This document shows positions 39,156 to 43,613 of a stretch of DNA of 64,000 bases, piece by piece. The notes beneath the pieces were generated by a model, which was given only the letters and a program-made list of their open reading frames with translations, did no database searches and was not told the origin of the DNA. The stretch comes from Phyllobacterium zundukense (GTDB lineage: Bacteria; Pseudomonadota; Alphaproteobacteria; Rhizobiales; Rhizobiaceae): contig NZ_CP017940.1 in the NCBI RefSeq assembly GCF_002764115.1, positions 124,001 to 188,000 on the forward strand. The letters are read 5' to 3'. Each line of letters begins with the position of its first letter. Position 1 is the stretch's first letter. Position numbers and translations under genes: made by a program.

Positions 39156-39881
39156 ATGACAAAAACGGCAATCGTGACAGGTGGAACACGTGGTATTGGC
39201 GCTGCCATTTGCGTGGCTTTGAAAGCGGCTGGCTACAAGGTCGCGGCAAACTACGCCGGCAATGATGACGCGGCGAAGAAATTCAGCAAGGAAACGGGAA
39301 TCGCTACCTATAAATGGGACGTATCGAATTATGAGGAATGCGCTGCTGGGATTGCCAAAATAGAGGCCGATCTCGGCCCTGTAGCCGTGCTAGTGAATAA
39401 TGCCGGCATCACCCGGGATGCGATGTTCCACAAGATGGCCCCGGGTCAGTGGAGCGAAGTGATCAATACCAACTTGACCGGTCTCTTCAACATGACCCAT
39501 CCGGTTTGGACCGGCATGCGCGATCGTAAATTCGGGCGAGTAATCAACATCTCTTCCATCAACGGGCAGAAGGGGCAGGCCGGACAGGTCAACTATTCGG
39601 CGGCGAAGGCTGGTGATATCGGGTTTACAAAGGCGCTGGCGCAGGAAGGCGCACGCGCGGGAATTACCGTCAATGCCATTTGCCCCGGTTACATCGGAAC
39701 CGAAATGGTGCGGGCGATCGACGAGAAGGTGCTTAACGAGCGCATCATACCACAGATCCCGGTCGGGCGTCTGGGCGAGCCCGAGGAAGTAGCGCGCTGT
39801 GTCGTGTTTCTCGCTTCCGACGATGCGGGATTCATCACTGGCTCGACGATCTCGGCAAATGGCGGACAATATTTCAGCTGA
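39156..39881 (+). CDS. phaB: Acetoacetyl-CoA reductase
   Basis: NADPH-dependent short-chain dehydrogenase that makes (R)-3-hydroxybutyryl-CoA for polyhydroxybutyrate synthesis. ATG 39156, after GGGAGGG, gives 241 residues; the frame is open from 39048, but that segment overlaps the terminator. Motifs: TGGTRGIGAAIC, NNAGIT, NINLTGLF-type NTNLTGLFNMT, catalytic YSAAKAGD, and ICPGYIGTEMV. High similarity to PhaB over FabG-type reductases is judged from SSINGQKGQAGQVNYSAAK. Pair with phaA. Confidence 0.94.
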   Translation: MTKTAIVTGGTRGIGAAICVALKAAGYKVAANYAGNDDAAKKFSKETGIATYKWDVSNYEECAAGIAKIEADLGPVAVLVNNAGITRDAMFHKMAPGQWSEVINTNLTGLFNMTHPVWTGMRDRKFGRVINISSINGQKGQAGQVNYSAAKAGDIGFTKALAQEGARAGITVNAICPGYIGTEMVRAIDEKVLNERIIPQIPVGRLGEPEEVARCVVFLASDDAGFITGSTISANGGQYFS

Positions 39882-39897
39882 TCGAAGACCAGATATG

Positions 39898-39935
39898 AAG
39901 CGCCGCTCATCCCAACGATGCGCGGCGCTTTTAAC
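39898..39935 (+). terminator. Terminator after phaB
   Basis: AAGCGCCGC and GCGGCGCTT arms with a CATCCCAACGAT-type loop and TTTT tail, 17 bases after the phaB stop. Confidence 0.8.
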
Positions 39936-40091
39936 TTTCTGTTGACCCTGAATTACCAAATCTGGGGAGGAATGCTGGTAAAGGATCAAATGAATCTTGT
40001 CCTAGCCGGGCTCGCTCTCCAGCCGGTTTCTATGATTCTTGGAGCTTCGATGCAAAATGTGACGGTGAACAAAGCATGAAAATTCACCGGG

Positions 40092-40115
40092 CGCTGATTC
40101 GTCGCCGATTCGTTC
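40092..40115 (+). repeat. 24-base direct repeat with paired GATTC, copy 1
   Basis: Matches 40362-40385 in 22 of 24 positions. It contains two GATTC sites starting 11 bases apart (40096 and 40107), one helical turn. GTGAACAAA lies 26 bases upstream of the repeat start, as in copy 2 (27 bases). Confidence 0.85.
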
Positions 40116-40361
40116 CGGTTTTGATCAAAATGTTGACGGAGTTGATGGCCAAAAGCAAACATCCGTTAACTAACTATAAGTAATCGTTACGATTTCATTA
40201 ATTTCTCAGTCAGCAGCAACAACTTTGCGAGATCAAAATTTCAAAGGTTAAAATGGGCCAGATAATCACACCGGCATGCCAATCGGCGATTCAGCATGTA
40301 GTGCGACTCCGGTCGTGAAAAGCTACATATGGCCGTGAACAAATCAGGAATCTCCTCCTAA

Positions 40362-40385
40362 CGCTGATTCGTAGCTGATTCGTTC
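40362..40385 (+). repeat. 24-base direct repeat with paired GATTC, copy 2
   Basis: Second copy, 270 bases downstream of the first, with GATTC at 40366 and 40377, again 11 bases apart. GTGAACAAA is at 40335. It lies about 170 bases before the helicase start, where promoter control is possible. Confidence 0.85.
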
Positions 40386-40553
40386 TGCTCGCGTTCTATT
40401 TCCTAATGGAACACTCCGTGAATCAGTTCGCGATTGTTTATCTGAAGGGTCCCGCATACTTTCTGTCGGATGCTGAAAATGCTATTCGGAACGCATGCCC
40501 GGCTCGCCTCGCTCGTTTGGTCAGGCCGTCGCGCCGGTATTGGAATGTAATTG

Positions 40554-43500
40554 ATGAACCTTATGCCCACTCCCGAACTTCCCCTCGTTTTGACGGGCCG
40601 CGATGTCACAGCCGTCCTGGGGCCGACCAATACAGGGAAAACGCATCTCGCCATCGAGCGGATGCTGGCGCACCAGACAGGCATGATCGGCCTGCCGCTG
40701 CGGCTTTTGGCACGCGAGGTTTATAATCGTGTAGCGGAACGGGTGGGAGTAGCGAATGTTGCGCTGATCACAGGCGAAGAAAAGATCAATCCGCCTGGTG
40801 CCCGCTACGCAGTCTGCACGGTCGAAGCCATGCCGCGCCAGACAGATATGGACTTCATCGCGATCGATGAAGTGCAGCTCGCGAATGATCTGGAGCGTGG
40901 CCATATCTTCACCGACCGGATTTTGCATCTTCGCGGCCGTCAGGAAACCTTGCTGCTTGGCGCCGCTACCATGCGTGGAATTCTGGAGAAGCTTTTGCGG
41001 GGGATTTCAGTCATAACCCGCCCCAGATTATCAAACCTGGCCTATGCAGGGTCGAAGAAGATCACCCGGCTGCCCCCGCGTACAGCTGTTGTCGCCTTTG
41101 CGGCTGAAGAGGTTTATGCGATTGCCGAGCTTATTCGGCGGCAGAATGGCGGTGCGGCCGTTGTGATGGGTGCGCTTAGTCCGCGCACGCGTAATGCCCA
41201 GGTCGATCTCTACCAATCGGGTGACGTCGACTACCTGGTTGCGACTGACGCTATCGGCATGGGTCTTAACCTCGATGTGGATCACGTCGCCTTTGCTCAA
41301 GACCGCAAGTTCGATGGCTATCAGTTTCGGGATCTGTCGCCAGCAGAAATCGGTCAGATCGCTGGTCGCGCCGGCCGGCATTTGCGTGATGGCACATTCG
41401 GCGTGACCGGCCAGGTGTCTGGCTTCTCCGACGAACTGGTACAGCGCGTCGAAACACATGCGTTTGATTCCGTCAAAATCCTGCAATGGCGAACGGCACG
41501 TTTCGACTATTCCAGCCTCGATGCGCTGAAGCGATCTATCGATACACCCGCACCGATTGAAGGGCTAACGCGGGCTCTCCCGGCTGTCGATCAGCAGGCA
41601 CTTGAGTTTTTGTCGCGTGATCCCGACGTGGCACCACTTGCCAGCACGCCGGAACGTGTGGCACTGCTGTGGGACACCTGCGCGCTACCAGACTATCGCA
41701 AAATCGCGCCGGCGCAGCACGCGGATATCATCGCGTCGATCTATACCGATCTTGCTGAGTCGGGGCATGTGAATGAGAACTACATGGCCGAAGAGGTCCG
41801 CAGGGCCGATTCCACCGATGGCGATATTGACGCGTTGTCGCGGCGCATCGCCCAGATCAGAACCTGGACTTTTGTGTCTCATCGGCCCGGATGGCTGGCA
41901 GATCAGGCACATTGGCAAGAAAAGACGCGTGAAATAGAGGACAGATTATCAGATGCACTGCATGAACGGTTGACGAAACGCTTCGTAGACCGCAGGACAA
42001 GCGTGCTTATGAGGCGCCTGAGAGAGAATACAATGCTAGAAGCCGAAATTAGCCCTGCCGGGGACGTTGTTGTCGAAGGGCACCATGTTGGACGTTTGGA
42101 TGGGTTCCGTTTCACGACGGATGCCCAAGTCGATGGAACCGATGCGAAAGCCATTAAGGCGGCCGCACAGAAAGCCCTGGCGACGGAGTTTGAAACCCGT
42201 GCAGAACGCTTTGCCGCTTCGGCGAATGGCGATTTTGCTCTGGGCTCGGACGGGACCTTGCGCTGGATCGGCGCTCCGGTTGCGTCTGTCGTTTCGGGCG
42301 AACAGGCACTCAAGCCCCGTGCGGTGTTGCTGGCCGACGAGCAACTGACCGGTCCGGCTCGCGACAAGGTTGCGGCGCGGGTCGATCGTTTCCTGGCACA
42401 TCACATCGAATCCGTGCTGAAGCCGCTTGTCGATCTCGCCAATGCCGACGCACTCATCGGCATCACCAAGGGTTTGGCCTTCCAGCTGGTCGAGAATTTC
42501 GGTGTCTTGCAACGCCGGGACGTTGCGGAAGATGTCCGCGATCTCGATCAGGACTCTCGCGCGGCTCTCCGCCGCCTTGGCGTCCGTTTTGGTGCGTATC
42601 ATGTATTCCTGCCTGCATTGCTCAAACCCGCTCCAGCGGCGCTGCTGACGCTTTTGTGGGCGCTCAAGGAAGATGCAAAAGATCGTCCGGGCTACGGCGA
42701 TGTGGTGCAAGTCCTGTCGGCCGGCCGTACATCTGTTGTGACTGACCCGGGCTTTGATCCAGCTTTCTATCGTCTGGCCGGTTATCGGCTCCTTGGACGG
42801 CGAGCGGTACGTATCGACATTCTCGAGCGCCTGGCGGATCTTATCCGGTCCGCACTCGCGTGGAAGCCCGGTACGGGCACTCGGCCGGATGGTGCCTATG
42901 ATGGCACGCGTTTTGTGGTCACACCGGCGATGATGTCAATTCTCGGTGCGACTGCCGACGATATGGAAGAGATCCTGAAAAATCTCGGCTACCGCCAGGA
43001 AGCTACCGATGCGGCGATCGTTGCCGCGAAACTCTCCGAACTTGATATAGCACCAGCGCCTGCCGTTCAGCAGGAAAGCGATGAGGCCGCGACGGAAACG
43101 GTGTCTGTGGAAGCTGGTGCAGAAGTATCCGAAGTATCGCCGGCCGTACCGGAAACTGCGGAAATAACCGCTGGAGCCGTGCCAGAACGAGTGGTCGATA
43201 CCAGCGAGCCCACGGAAGAACCTGCCGTTATTGCTCCCGAAGTCCTTGAAGACACGCCAAAGCCGATACTACTCTGGCGCCAGGCGCGCTTTGAAGGCCG
43301 CAACAATCGGGGCAATCACGAAAAGCGCGAACATCCGAGAGGCGGTCAGGCACGCAATACTCAGGGCGAGCAGCGAGCACCCCGGCCGGAGCGAAATGCA
43401 AACCAGCAGAATGAACGCGGTGAGCGCAAGGAGCATTTTCGCGGCAAGGGCAAGCCAGGTGGCAACGAGCGGTTCAAGCAAGACGGTAGCAAGCCCACAG

Positions 43501-43613
43501 GCAAACCGCAGATCCAGGCTAAGCGTCCTGAACGTGAAGAACGCCCGGTCAAGATCGATATGGATTCGCCCTTCGCCAAGTTGCTGGCGCTGAAGGAACA
43601 ACTGAAGAAGTAA
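40554..43613 (+). CDS. SUV3-like DExH RNA helicase with long charged tail
   Basis: About 1019 residues from ATG 40554 (TTG 40551 and ATG 40563 are alternatives). The helicase core resembles mitochondrial SUV3: Walker A GPTNTGKTH near residue 22, DEVQ box IDEVQLAND, and motif VI IGQIAGRAGRH. A middle region of about 500 residues with no obvious motif follows, then an acidic tract from about residue 833, a basic R/G/N/Q-rich tract from about 912 that would bind RNA, and a conserved-looking end DSPFAKLLALKEQLKK. Likely acts in RNA turnover or ribosome assembly. The next gene encodes an S4 RNA-binding protein 15 bases later. Confidence 0.88.
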   Translation: MNLMPTPELPLVLTGRDVTAVLGPTNTGKTHLAIERMLAHQTGMIGLPLRLLAREVYNRVAERVGVANVALITGEEKINPPGARYAVCTVEAMPRQTDMDFIAIDEVQLANDLERGHIFTDRILHLRGRQETLLLGAATMRGILEKLLRGISVITRPRLSNLAYAGSKKITRLPPRTAVVAFAAEEVYAIAELIRRQNGGAAVVMGALSPRTRNAQVDLYQSGDVDYLVATDAIGMGLNLDVDHVAFAQDRKFDGYQFRDLSPAEIGQIAGRAGRHLRDGTFGVTGQVSGFSDELVQRVETHAFDSVKILQWRTARFDYSSLDALKRSIDTPAPIEGLTRALPAVDQQALEFLSRDPDVAPLASTPERVALLWDTCALPDYRKIAPAQHADIIASIYTDLAESGHVNENYMAEEVRRADSTDGDIDALSRRIAQIRTWTFVSHRPGWLADQAHWQEKTREIEDRLSDALHERLTKRFVDRRTSVLMRRLRENTMLEAEISPAGDVVVEGHHVGRLDGFRFTTDAQVDGTDAKAIKAAAQKALATEFETRAERFAASANGDFALGSDGTLRWIGAPVASVVSGEQALKPRAVLLADEQLTGPARDKVAARVDRFLAHHIESVLKPLVDLANADALIGITKGLAFQLVENFGVLQRRDVAEDVRDLDQDSRAALRRLGVRFGAYHVFLPALLKPAPAALLTLLWALKEDAKDRPGYGDVVQVLSAGRTSVVTDPGFDPAFYRLAGYRLLGRRAVRIDILERLADLIRSALAWKPGTGTRPDGAYDGTRFVVTPAMMSILGATADDMEEILKNLGYRQEATDAAIVAAKLSELDIAPAPAVQQESDEAATETVSVEAGAEVSEVSPAVPETAEITAGAVPERVVDTSEPTEEPAVIAPEVLEDTPKPILLWRQARFEGRNNRGNHEKREHPRGGQARNTQGEQRAPRPERNANQQNERGERKEHFRGKGKPGGNERFKQDGSKPTGKPQIQAKRPEREERPVKIDMDSPFAKLLALKEQLKK

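Follow-up and report, generated by a model that had tools for sequence, protein, structure and literature searches.

A tandem GANTC-containing module upstream of a predicted helicase gene in Phyllobacterium and its order: a possible composite of GcrA/CcrM- and LexA-type sites

The window analysed here is a stretch of 64,000 nucleotides from chromosome C1 of Phyllobacterium zundukense, in which an intergenic interval separates a phaB-type acetoacetyl-CoA reductase gene from a gene for a Suv3-like helicase of the MgpS type. Both neighbours had been named correctly in a first-pass annotation made from the sequence (TIGR01829 and PF22527, respectively). The solved structures closest to the helicase are Suv3/SUPV3L1, and the protein is 93-94% identical to those of P. 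myrsinacearum and P. pellucidum. In Sinorhizobium meliloti, phbB is presumably SMc03878. The gene SMc03877 of the same species is mgpS, listed among the RNA helicases raised under acid stress (PMC4941405, in part), and would be the orthologue of the Phyllobacterium helicase gene. Just past phaB, an inverted repeat with a short run of T behind it is likely the phaB terminator, judging from its sequence, and is absent from the output of our terminator scan. At the other end, a conserved block past the second module copy is a possible core promoter of the helicase gene; the promoter scan did not report it and gave a single hit in the interval, at 40225-40254. In Rhizobium, the helicase promoter is probably the conserved block about 60-80 bp 3′ of the proximal copy. 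The features of the locus are as follows.

39156..39881, + strand: phaB-type acetoacetyl-CoA reductase gene, the upstream gene (open reading frame; TIGR01829 above cut-off)
39898..39930, + strand: inverted repeat, then short T run, just past phaB (14-nt arms, 93% complementary)
39992..40424, no strand: stretch with ten GANTC sites (site count against chromosome background)
40051..40142, + strand: module copy 1, distal, "up" type (R1 profile 67.4 bits, E 2.6e-20 in the window)
40067..40081, + strand: copy 1 left arm, GAAC-N7-GAAA (sequence; alignment A1)
40095..40101, + strand: copy 1 central TGATTCG, the YGATTCG core (sequence; GATTCG invariant in A1)
40106..40112, + strand: copy 1 second site, CGATTCG, 11 bp past the first (sequence)
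40112..40126, + strand: copy 1 right arm, GTTC-N7-GATC, off the LexA consensus (sequence)
40166..40180, + strand: TTAA-N7-TAAG, weak CtrA-like motif (2 of 8 bases off TTAA-N7-TTAA)
40288..40303, + strand: GATTCAGCATnTnGTG, conserved, some 35 bp 5′ of the GAAC arm in copy 2 (genus and family alignment)
40321..40412, + strand: module copy 2, proximal to the helicase gene (R1 profile 61.0 bits, E 2.6e-18 in the window)
40337..40351, + strand: copy 2 left arm, GAAC-N7-GAAT (sequence; alignment A1)
40365..40371, + strand: copy 2 central TGATTCG (sequence; alignments)
40376..40382, + strand: copy 2 second site, TGATTCG, 11 bp past the first (sequence)
40382..40396, + strand: copy 2 right arm, GTTC-N7-GTTC, the alphaproteobacterial LexA-box consensus (exact match)
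40420..40424, + strand: GAATC past copy 2 (seen in the alignment in 19 of 20 genus loci)
40434..40460, + strand: candidate helicase core promoter, TTGTTT ... CATACT (conserved block past copy 2)
40554..43613, + strand: Suv3-like helicase gene, MgpS type (PF22527, 1.6e-27; Suv3/SUPV3L1 structures)

The interval had first attracted attention through ten GANTC sites within 433 bases, and all ten lie where they were reported (39992, 40034, 40096, 40107, 40288, 40305, 40348, 40366, 40377 and 40420). The 1.7 sites then given as the chance expectation is a uniform-base value; the real background, sampled as 20 stretches of 20 kb from the same 3.95-Mb chromosome (C1), is 734 GANTC per 400 kb, or 0.79 per 433 bp, which makes the cluster even stronger than proposed. 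The richest 433-bp stretch in the 400-kb sample holds 6 sites, against 10 here, and the Poisson probability of at least ten sites is about 1e-8 per stretch, or 7e-6 when the density is doubled for intergenic DNA. Across the window, GANTC is depleted, with 121 sites observed against 319 expected from dinucleotide shuffles, a depletion that is consistent with CcrM methylation. The cluster is also kept in relatives: over 126 distinct regions, the 650-700 bp before the helicase gene contain a mean of 9.5 GANTC sites, against 0.42 in roughly the first 700 bp of the gene itself. Five of the ten sites fall inside two copies of a longer module, and a sixth lies in GATTCAGCATnTnGTG, whose GATTC is kept in 20 of 20 genus loci and which also occurs before the proximal copies of the family.

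What the first-pass annotation had not noticed is this module of about 90 bp, tandem, with GAAC/GTTC arms and tied to one gene across the order. In the interval it appears as a direct repeat of 64 nt, 75% identical and 270 bp apart. The module was defined from 20 genus genomes, 80 named loci and 30 loci fetched by its core, and its consensus runs, in order, CNANATNTNG, GtGAACAAA, GAA(t), GTCag, CGATTCGTC and GATTCGTTC, followed by a type-specific end, which is GTTCc in the helicase-proximal copy and TTTG-tC with gTTAA in the upstream copies. In alignment A1, the half-sites GAAC (columns 20-23) and GAAY (31-34) face GTTC (65-68) and GTTC (76-79) and share one symmetry centre (20+79 = 31+68 = 99), at which lies the GATTCG of columns 49-54, invariant in A1. 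Of 79 proximal copies, 77 have a YGATTCK core, as have 87 of the 92 distal ones, counts for which the anchor used to collect copies (up to 3 mismatches allowed) itself selects for the core columns. The outer GTTC was found in 71 of 79 proximal copies, against 12 of 92 distal ones, and the left arm mostly ends in GAAT or GAAA, with a GAAC end in only 6 of 48 family copies. At the level of order and class, GATTCG is the most constant element, with variation in the second GATTC and in the outer arm.

Of 151 family genomes, 87 contain the exact core GATTCGTNNNYGATTCGTTC (62 of 106 genera) and none contains a reversed control pattern; a looser module pattern gave one match in 400 kb of control sequence on both strands. 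Beyond the family we used R1, a sequence profile built from family copies, with stricter filters at order and class level. Within the order, 115 of 150 genomes (67 of 87 genera) matched the profile; the class yielded 19 matching genomes out of 192, 3 of which are the own genome or belong to the same order. For the own 6.2-Mb genome, the R1 searches list two matches, copies 1 and 2, on which ground a dispersed repeat was rejected; plasmid copies were likewise rejected, blastn giving no match to the 691-bp interval. The open literature, as far as its parts were covered, contains no description of a module of about 90 bp, which is no proof that it is unpublished, and the covered parts of the papers on methylation and GcrA do not name the locus.

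In most loci examined, the module precedes the same predicted helicase gene. Among loci fetched by the helicase alone, 95 of 100 carry one to five copies (20 of 20 in the genus, 75 of 80 named loci), the five without a copy being L055, L060, L105, L112 and L128. This is a fairer figure than 125 of 130, which includes 30 family loci that had been retrieved through the core itself. Some of the 130 loci are probably one genome counted twice (L023 and L049, for example; hence the 126 distinct regions of the upstream counts). Of the 130, 5 have no copy, 50 have one, 41 two, 25 three, 7 four and 2 five; the gap from one copy to the next is 200-290 bp in 102 of 120 cases. When loci were instead fetched by the module, all 30 family loci had a helicase motif downstream, as did the best 30 order-level loci by score (25 of them outside the family) and 16 of 18 class-level loci; the order-level loci inspected, these best-scoring 30 plus further chosen stretches, are a subset of all matches. 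The genes upstream of helicase loci fetched by the module differ from locus to locus. At the class level, 115 of 133 genomes with a helicase match lack the module at the threshold used, and an unfiltered scan of 19 module-less helicase loci added two weak matches.

The core of the module, upstream of the helicase gene, matches the extended GcrA/CcrM motif, for which a YGAKTCK/YGATTCG form has been reported (PMC7987155, in part). GcrA is encoded in the own genome (E 2.1e-61) and was found in 40 of the 40 module carriers tested, out of 131. Among the genomes drawn from the class, a GcrA match is present in all 19 carriers, against 106 of 173 non-carriers (Fisher 1.7e-4, for lineages that are not independent). 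ChIP-seq of GcrA in Brucella abortus gave peaks with a 4.4-4.7-fold enrichment of GANTC, and lexA and uvrA are among the targets (PMC6813329, in part). As to the arms, the LexA box of alphaproteobacteria is GTTC-N7-GTTC (PMC12700426, in part) and can readily overlap GANTC sites (PMC7987155). The right arm of copy 2 is an exact match (G000:C1:164382-164396, window 40382-40396); the distal copy 1 has no LexA box there but GTTC-N7-GATC instead. LexA was found in 39 of the 40 carriers tested, and in the own genome the same box stands before lexA and between ssb and uvrA (genes identified by Pfam). Genome-wide, GTTC-N7-GTTC is not enriched, with 219 matches against 217 for the reversed control. In L297/L209 (genome G364) and in L264, a perfect GAAC-N7-GAAC box lies in the module interval beside a divergent radical SAM gene, and in the own genome a radical SAM gene also has a TTTGTTC-type box.

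Taken as a whole, the evidence for a GcrA motif core together with that for a LexA-box arm favours a composite module. Our main reading, to which we give a tentative probability of roughly 40%, is that the predicted helicase gene is controlled through the module as a composite switch, in which a GcrA/CcrM-type centre is flanked left and right by LexA-type half-sites; that GcrA or LexA would bind there is inferred from the motifs. In such a switch, CcrM would methylate the central YGATTCG, the passage of a replication fork would leave it hemimethylated, and GcrA would read the methylated site and aid RNA polymerase at the core promoter just downstream. Until DNA damage occurs, which is perhaps an input to the switch, the module would be covered by LexA or by another protein that recognises GAAC/GTTC half-sites at 11-bp spacing, and extra upstream copies would raise the local occupancy of these factors. 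The helicase would then be expressed in step with the cell cycle and more strongly after damage. The earlier suggestion of a promoter or switch that reads methylation thus receives partial support: the cluster is exceptional and conserved, its core is of the GcrA type and the idea is plausible. Confinement of the module to one locus in its own genome is unlike a regulon motif and stands as a point against.

A simpler explanation is a GcrA/CcrM promoter only, in which the arms would serve as a GcrA-RNA polymerase site or bind another activator and LexA would play no part. It draws on the constancy of GATTCG at order and class level, compared with a variable second GATTC and outer arm, on the presence of GcrA in all 40 carriers tested and on the GANTC richness of the Brucella GcrA peaks (PMC6813329). 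However, it leaves unexplained both the conserved GAAC/GTTC half-sites at 11-bp spacing and the fact that R1 lists no second locus in the own genome, and we consider it rather unlikely.

Copies away from the helicase bear on a second alternative. In 14 further order-level stretches, mostly secondary sites, the helicase is present in 5 and absent in 9. Genome G190 has three tandem copies beside a DUF3108 gene, with the helicase gene elsewhere and accompanied by one copy, whereas in its relatives G261 and G288 the DUF3108 gene, the copies and the helicase lie together. When L304 and L305 are set against L316 and L317, a rearrangement in one family is seen to have split the locus, the helicase having kept one proximal copy. 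G312 is split like G190, with three copies, and its neighbour gene has no Pfam match. Two copies in G284 lie where a pyruvate-dehydrogenase-E1-like gene and an RNase T2 gene converge, and G309 has two copies in an arrangement that resembles that of G284 (loci L308 and L309). In G355 a copy lies beside an acyl-CoA dehydrogenase gene and a helicase match is absent. In G480 (L300) a distance of 4.7 kb separates the module from the helicase; this gap is occupied by mer-type genes (MerR and heavy-metal-domain genes) and, by eye, a partial copy of the helicase start. Neighbour genes to which no Pfam test was applied (for example in L309 and most class loci) were read from the sequence.

Several further arrangements were seen. 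G245 has two module-like copies about 1 kb from parB (L313 at 1788 and 2101; PF17762, PF02195), a position that would fit a chromosome-related role. In several family loci, opposite-strand genes separate the distal copy from the helicase; in L064, L069 (Pfam-checked), L073, L075 and L085 these genes are small, of the glycine-zipper kind and, by eye, lipoprotein-like, and they separate the distal copy from the proximal one as well. One genome has near-identical copies at L310 (position 2084) and L311 (position 834), one among genes that look phage-like by eye and the other at the helicase locus, suggesting recent copying.

Some copies thus persist without a nearby helicase, an observation that speaks against a pure promoter role and that, together with the module-less helicases of the class, leaves room for an array function beyond helicase transcription. 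The module could then be a chromosomal site array with a job of its own, as a sink or a sensor of replication state, its placement before the helicase being mostly historical. Tandem copies kept at other places than the helicase locus (some in convergent intervals, one pair close to parB), a carrier without a helicase match and the regular spacing (102 of 120 gaps) all point that way. Nevertheless, 95 of 100 helicase-fetched loci carry the module, module-fetched loci sit before the helicase in 30/30, 30/30 (best-scoring) and 16/18 cases, and the proximal copy has its own consensus, with the outer GTTC, directly 5′ of the conserved promoter-like block. We therefore regard the array as unlikely. 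Stated for the order at large, as a methylation-read Rhizobiales control site, often tandem and independent of the helicase, with CcrM sites framed by LexA-type arms, the idea appears to us decidedly unlikely, and the same holds for its further content, a sink or replication-state sensor for which the helicase promoter would be just one output.

It is very doubtful that the copies are small RNA genes or the promoters of such genes. Tandem intergenic copies, some before no recognised gene, are indeed what duplicated small RNAs look like. Rfam, however, gave no match at E<=1, no consensus RNA fold emerged over 50 copies, and single folds of four strands did not clearly outdo shuffled sequences (z between +0.83 and -1.49). 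The terminator scan reported one terminator-like site past copy 2, at chance level. In nine Rhizobium loci, mean identity per 20-bp block is 0.34-0.64 in the stretches between copies and mostly 0.7-0.98 inside the copies. Small RNAs were accordingly rejected on the Rfam, fold, terminator and conservation results. A leader peptide read from GTGAACAAA was also rejected, its constant bases falling, by eye, on third codon positions and its variable bases on second ones, with differing stops.

A replication origin or DnaA-type control site is extremely improbable. An origin-like control region had been raised in the first-pass annotation, and the locus is AT-rich and GANTC-dense, with CtrA half-sites nearby in relatives. 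However, of the 20 stretches sampled, the nine at positions up to 1.6 Mb have a positive GC skew and the eleven from 1.8 Mb onwards a negative one, so the switch lies near 0/3.95 Mb and not at 164 kb, and no DnaA box with at most one mismatch to TTATNCACA occurs in 39990-40430. An origin of replication was rejected on these two grounds. The near-consensus CtrA motif described earlier exists at 40166-40180 and is similar in 11 of 20 genus loci, but it is weak, and the full motif with at most one mismatch is not enriched, with 3 occurrences in the window (one at 40187-40201) against 6.0 expected. The CtrA half-sites TTAACCAT/ATGGTTAA occur in 36 of 126 family upstream regions, against 2.5 in base-composition shuffles. 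Without a consensus fold, an Rfam match or a DnaA box, and with lower conservation in the DNA between copies than inside them, the module behaves as a set of protein sites on DNA.

A chance cluster without function, for which nothing speaks beyond the general excess of GANTC in intergenic DNA (PMC3973325, PMC8725594, each in part), has practically no probability left, being already ruled out by conservation, with site positions conserved in the genus alignment and the module present across the order.

Returning to the composite switch, its interest lies partly in its stability. Targets of GcrA/CcrM are reported to be rewired even between close relatives (PMC7987155), and a GANTC-centred module that is tied to one gene across the order and can be followed outside it would therefore be an unusually stable part of the network. 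Should LexA bind the arms, a single DNA element in front of the helicase gene would link the SOS response to cell-cycle methylation. Natural copies that lack one arm or one GANTC provide ready material for testing the parts.

Among known systems, datA, DARS and crtS are chromosomal control sites. Like them, the module is one small non-coding locus per chromosome and could act apart from genes; unlike them, it is linked to a helicase gene, has no DnaA boxes and has a putative function. Dam-overlapping switches (Lrp, OxyR, Fur; PMC3973325) resemble the module in that protein sites overlap a methylation site, so that binding and methylation could compete. The module differs from them in its CcrM-type GANTC and in the proteins concerned, and it shows no sign of phase variation. 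With LexA (SOS) operators it shares the exact GTTC-N7-GTTC of the proximal right arm, and its left arm, GAACAAA-N4-GAAY, is similar to the ssb/uvrA box when that box is read as its reverse complement. Unlike such operators, its two arms are inverted around a methylation site, the left and distal right arms deviate, and it lies upstream of a promoter-like block and not over it. Caulobacter-type GcrA/CcrM promoters have in common with the module a methylatable GANTC of YGAKTCG form in an intergenic position upstream of a gene, in a genome that bears GcrA. In contrast to these promoters, the module is tandem, extends over about 90 bp with several GANTC sites and flanking GAAC/GTTC arms, and occupies one locus in its own genome while being tied to one gene over the order.
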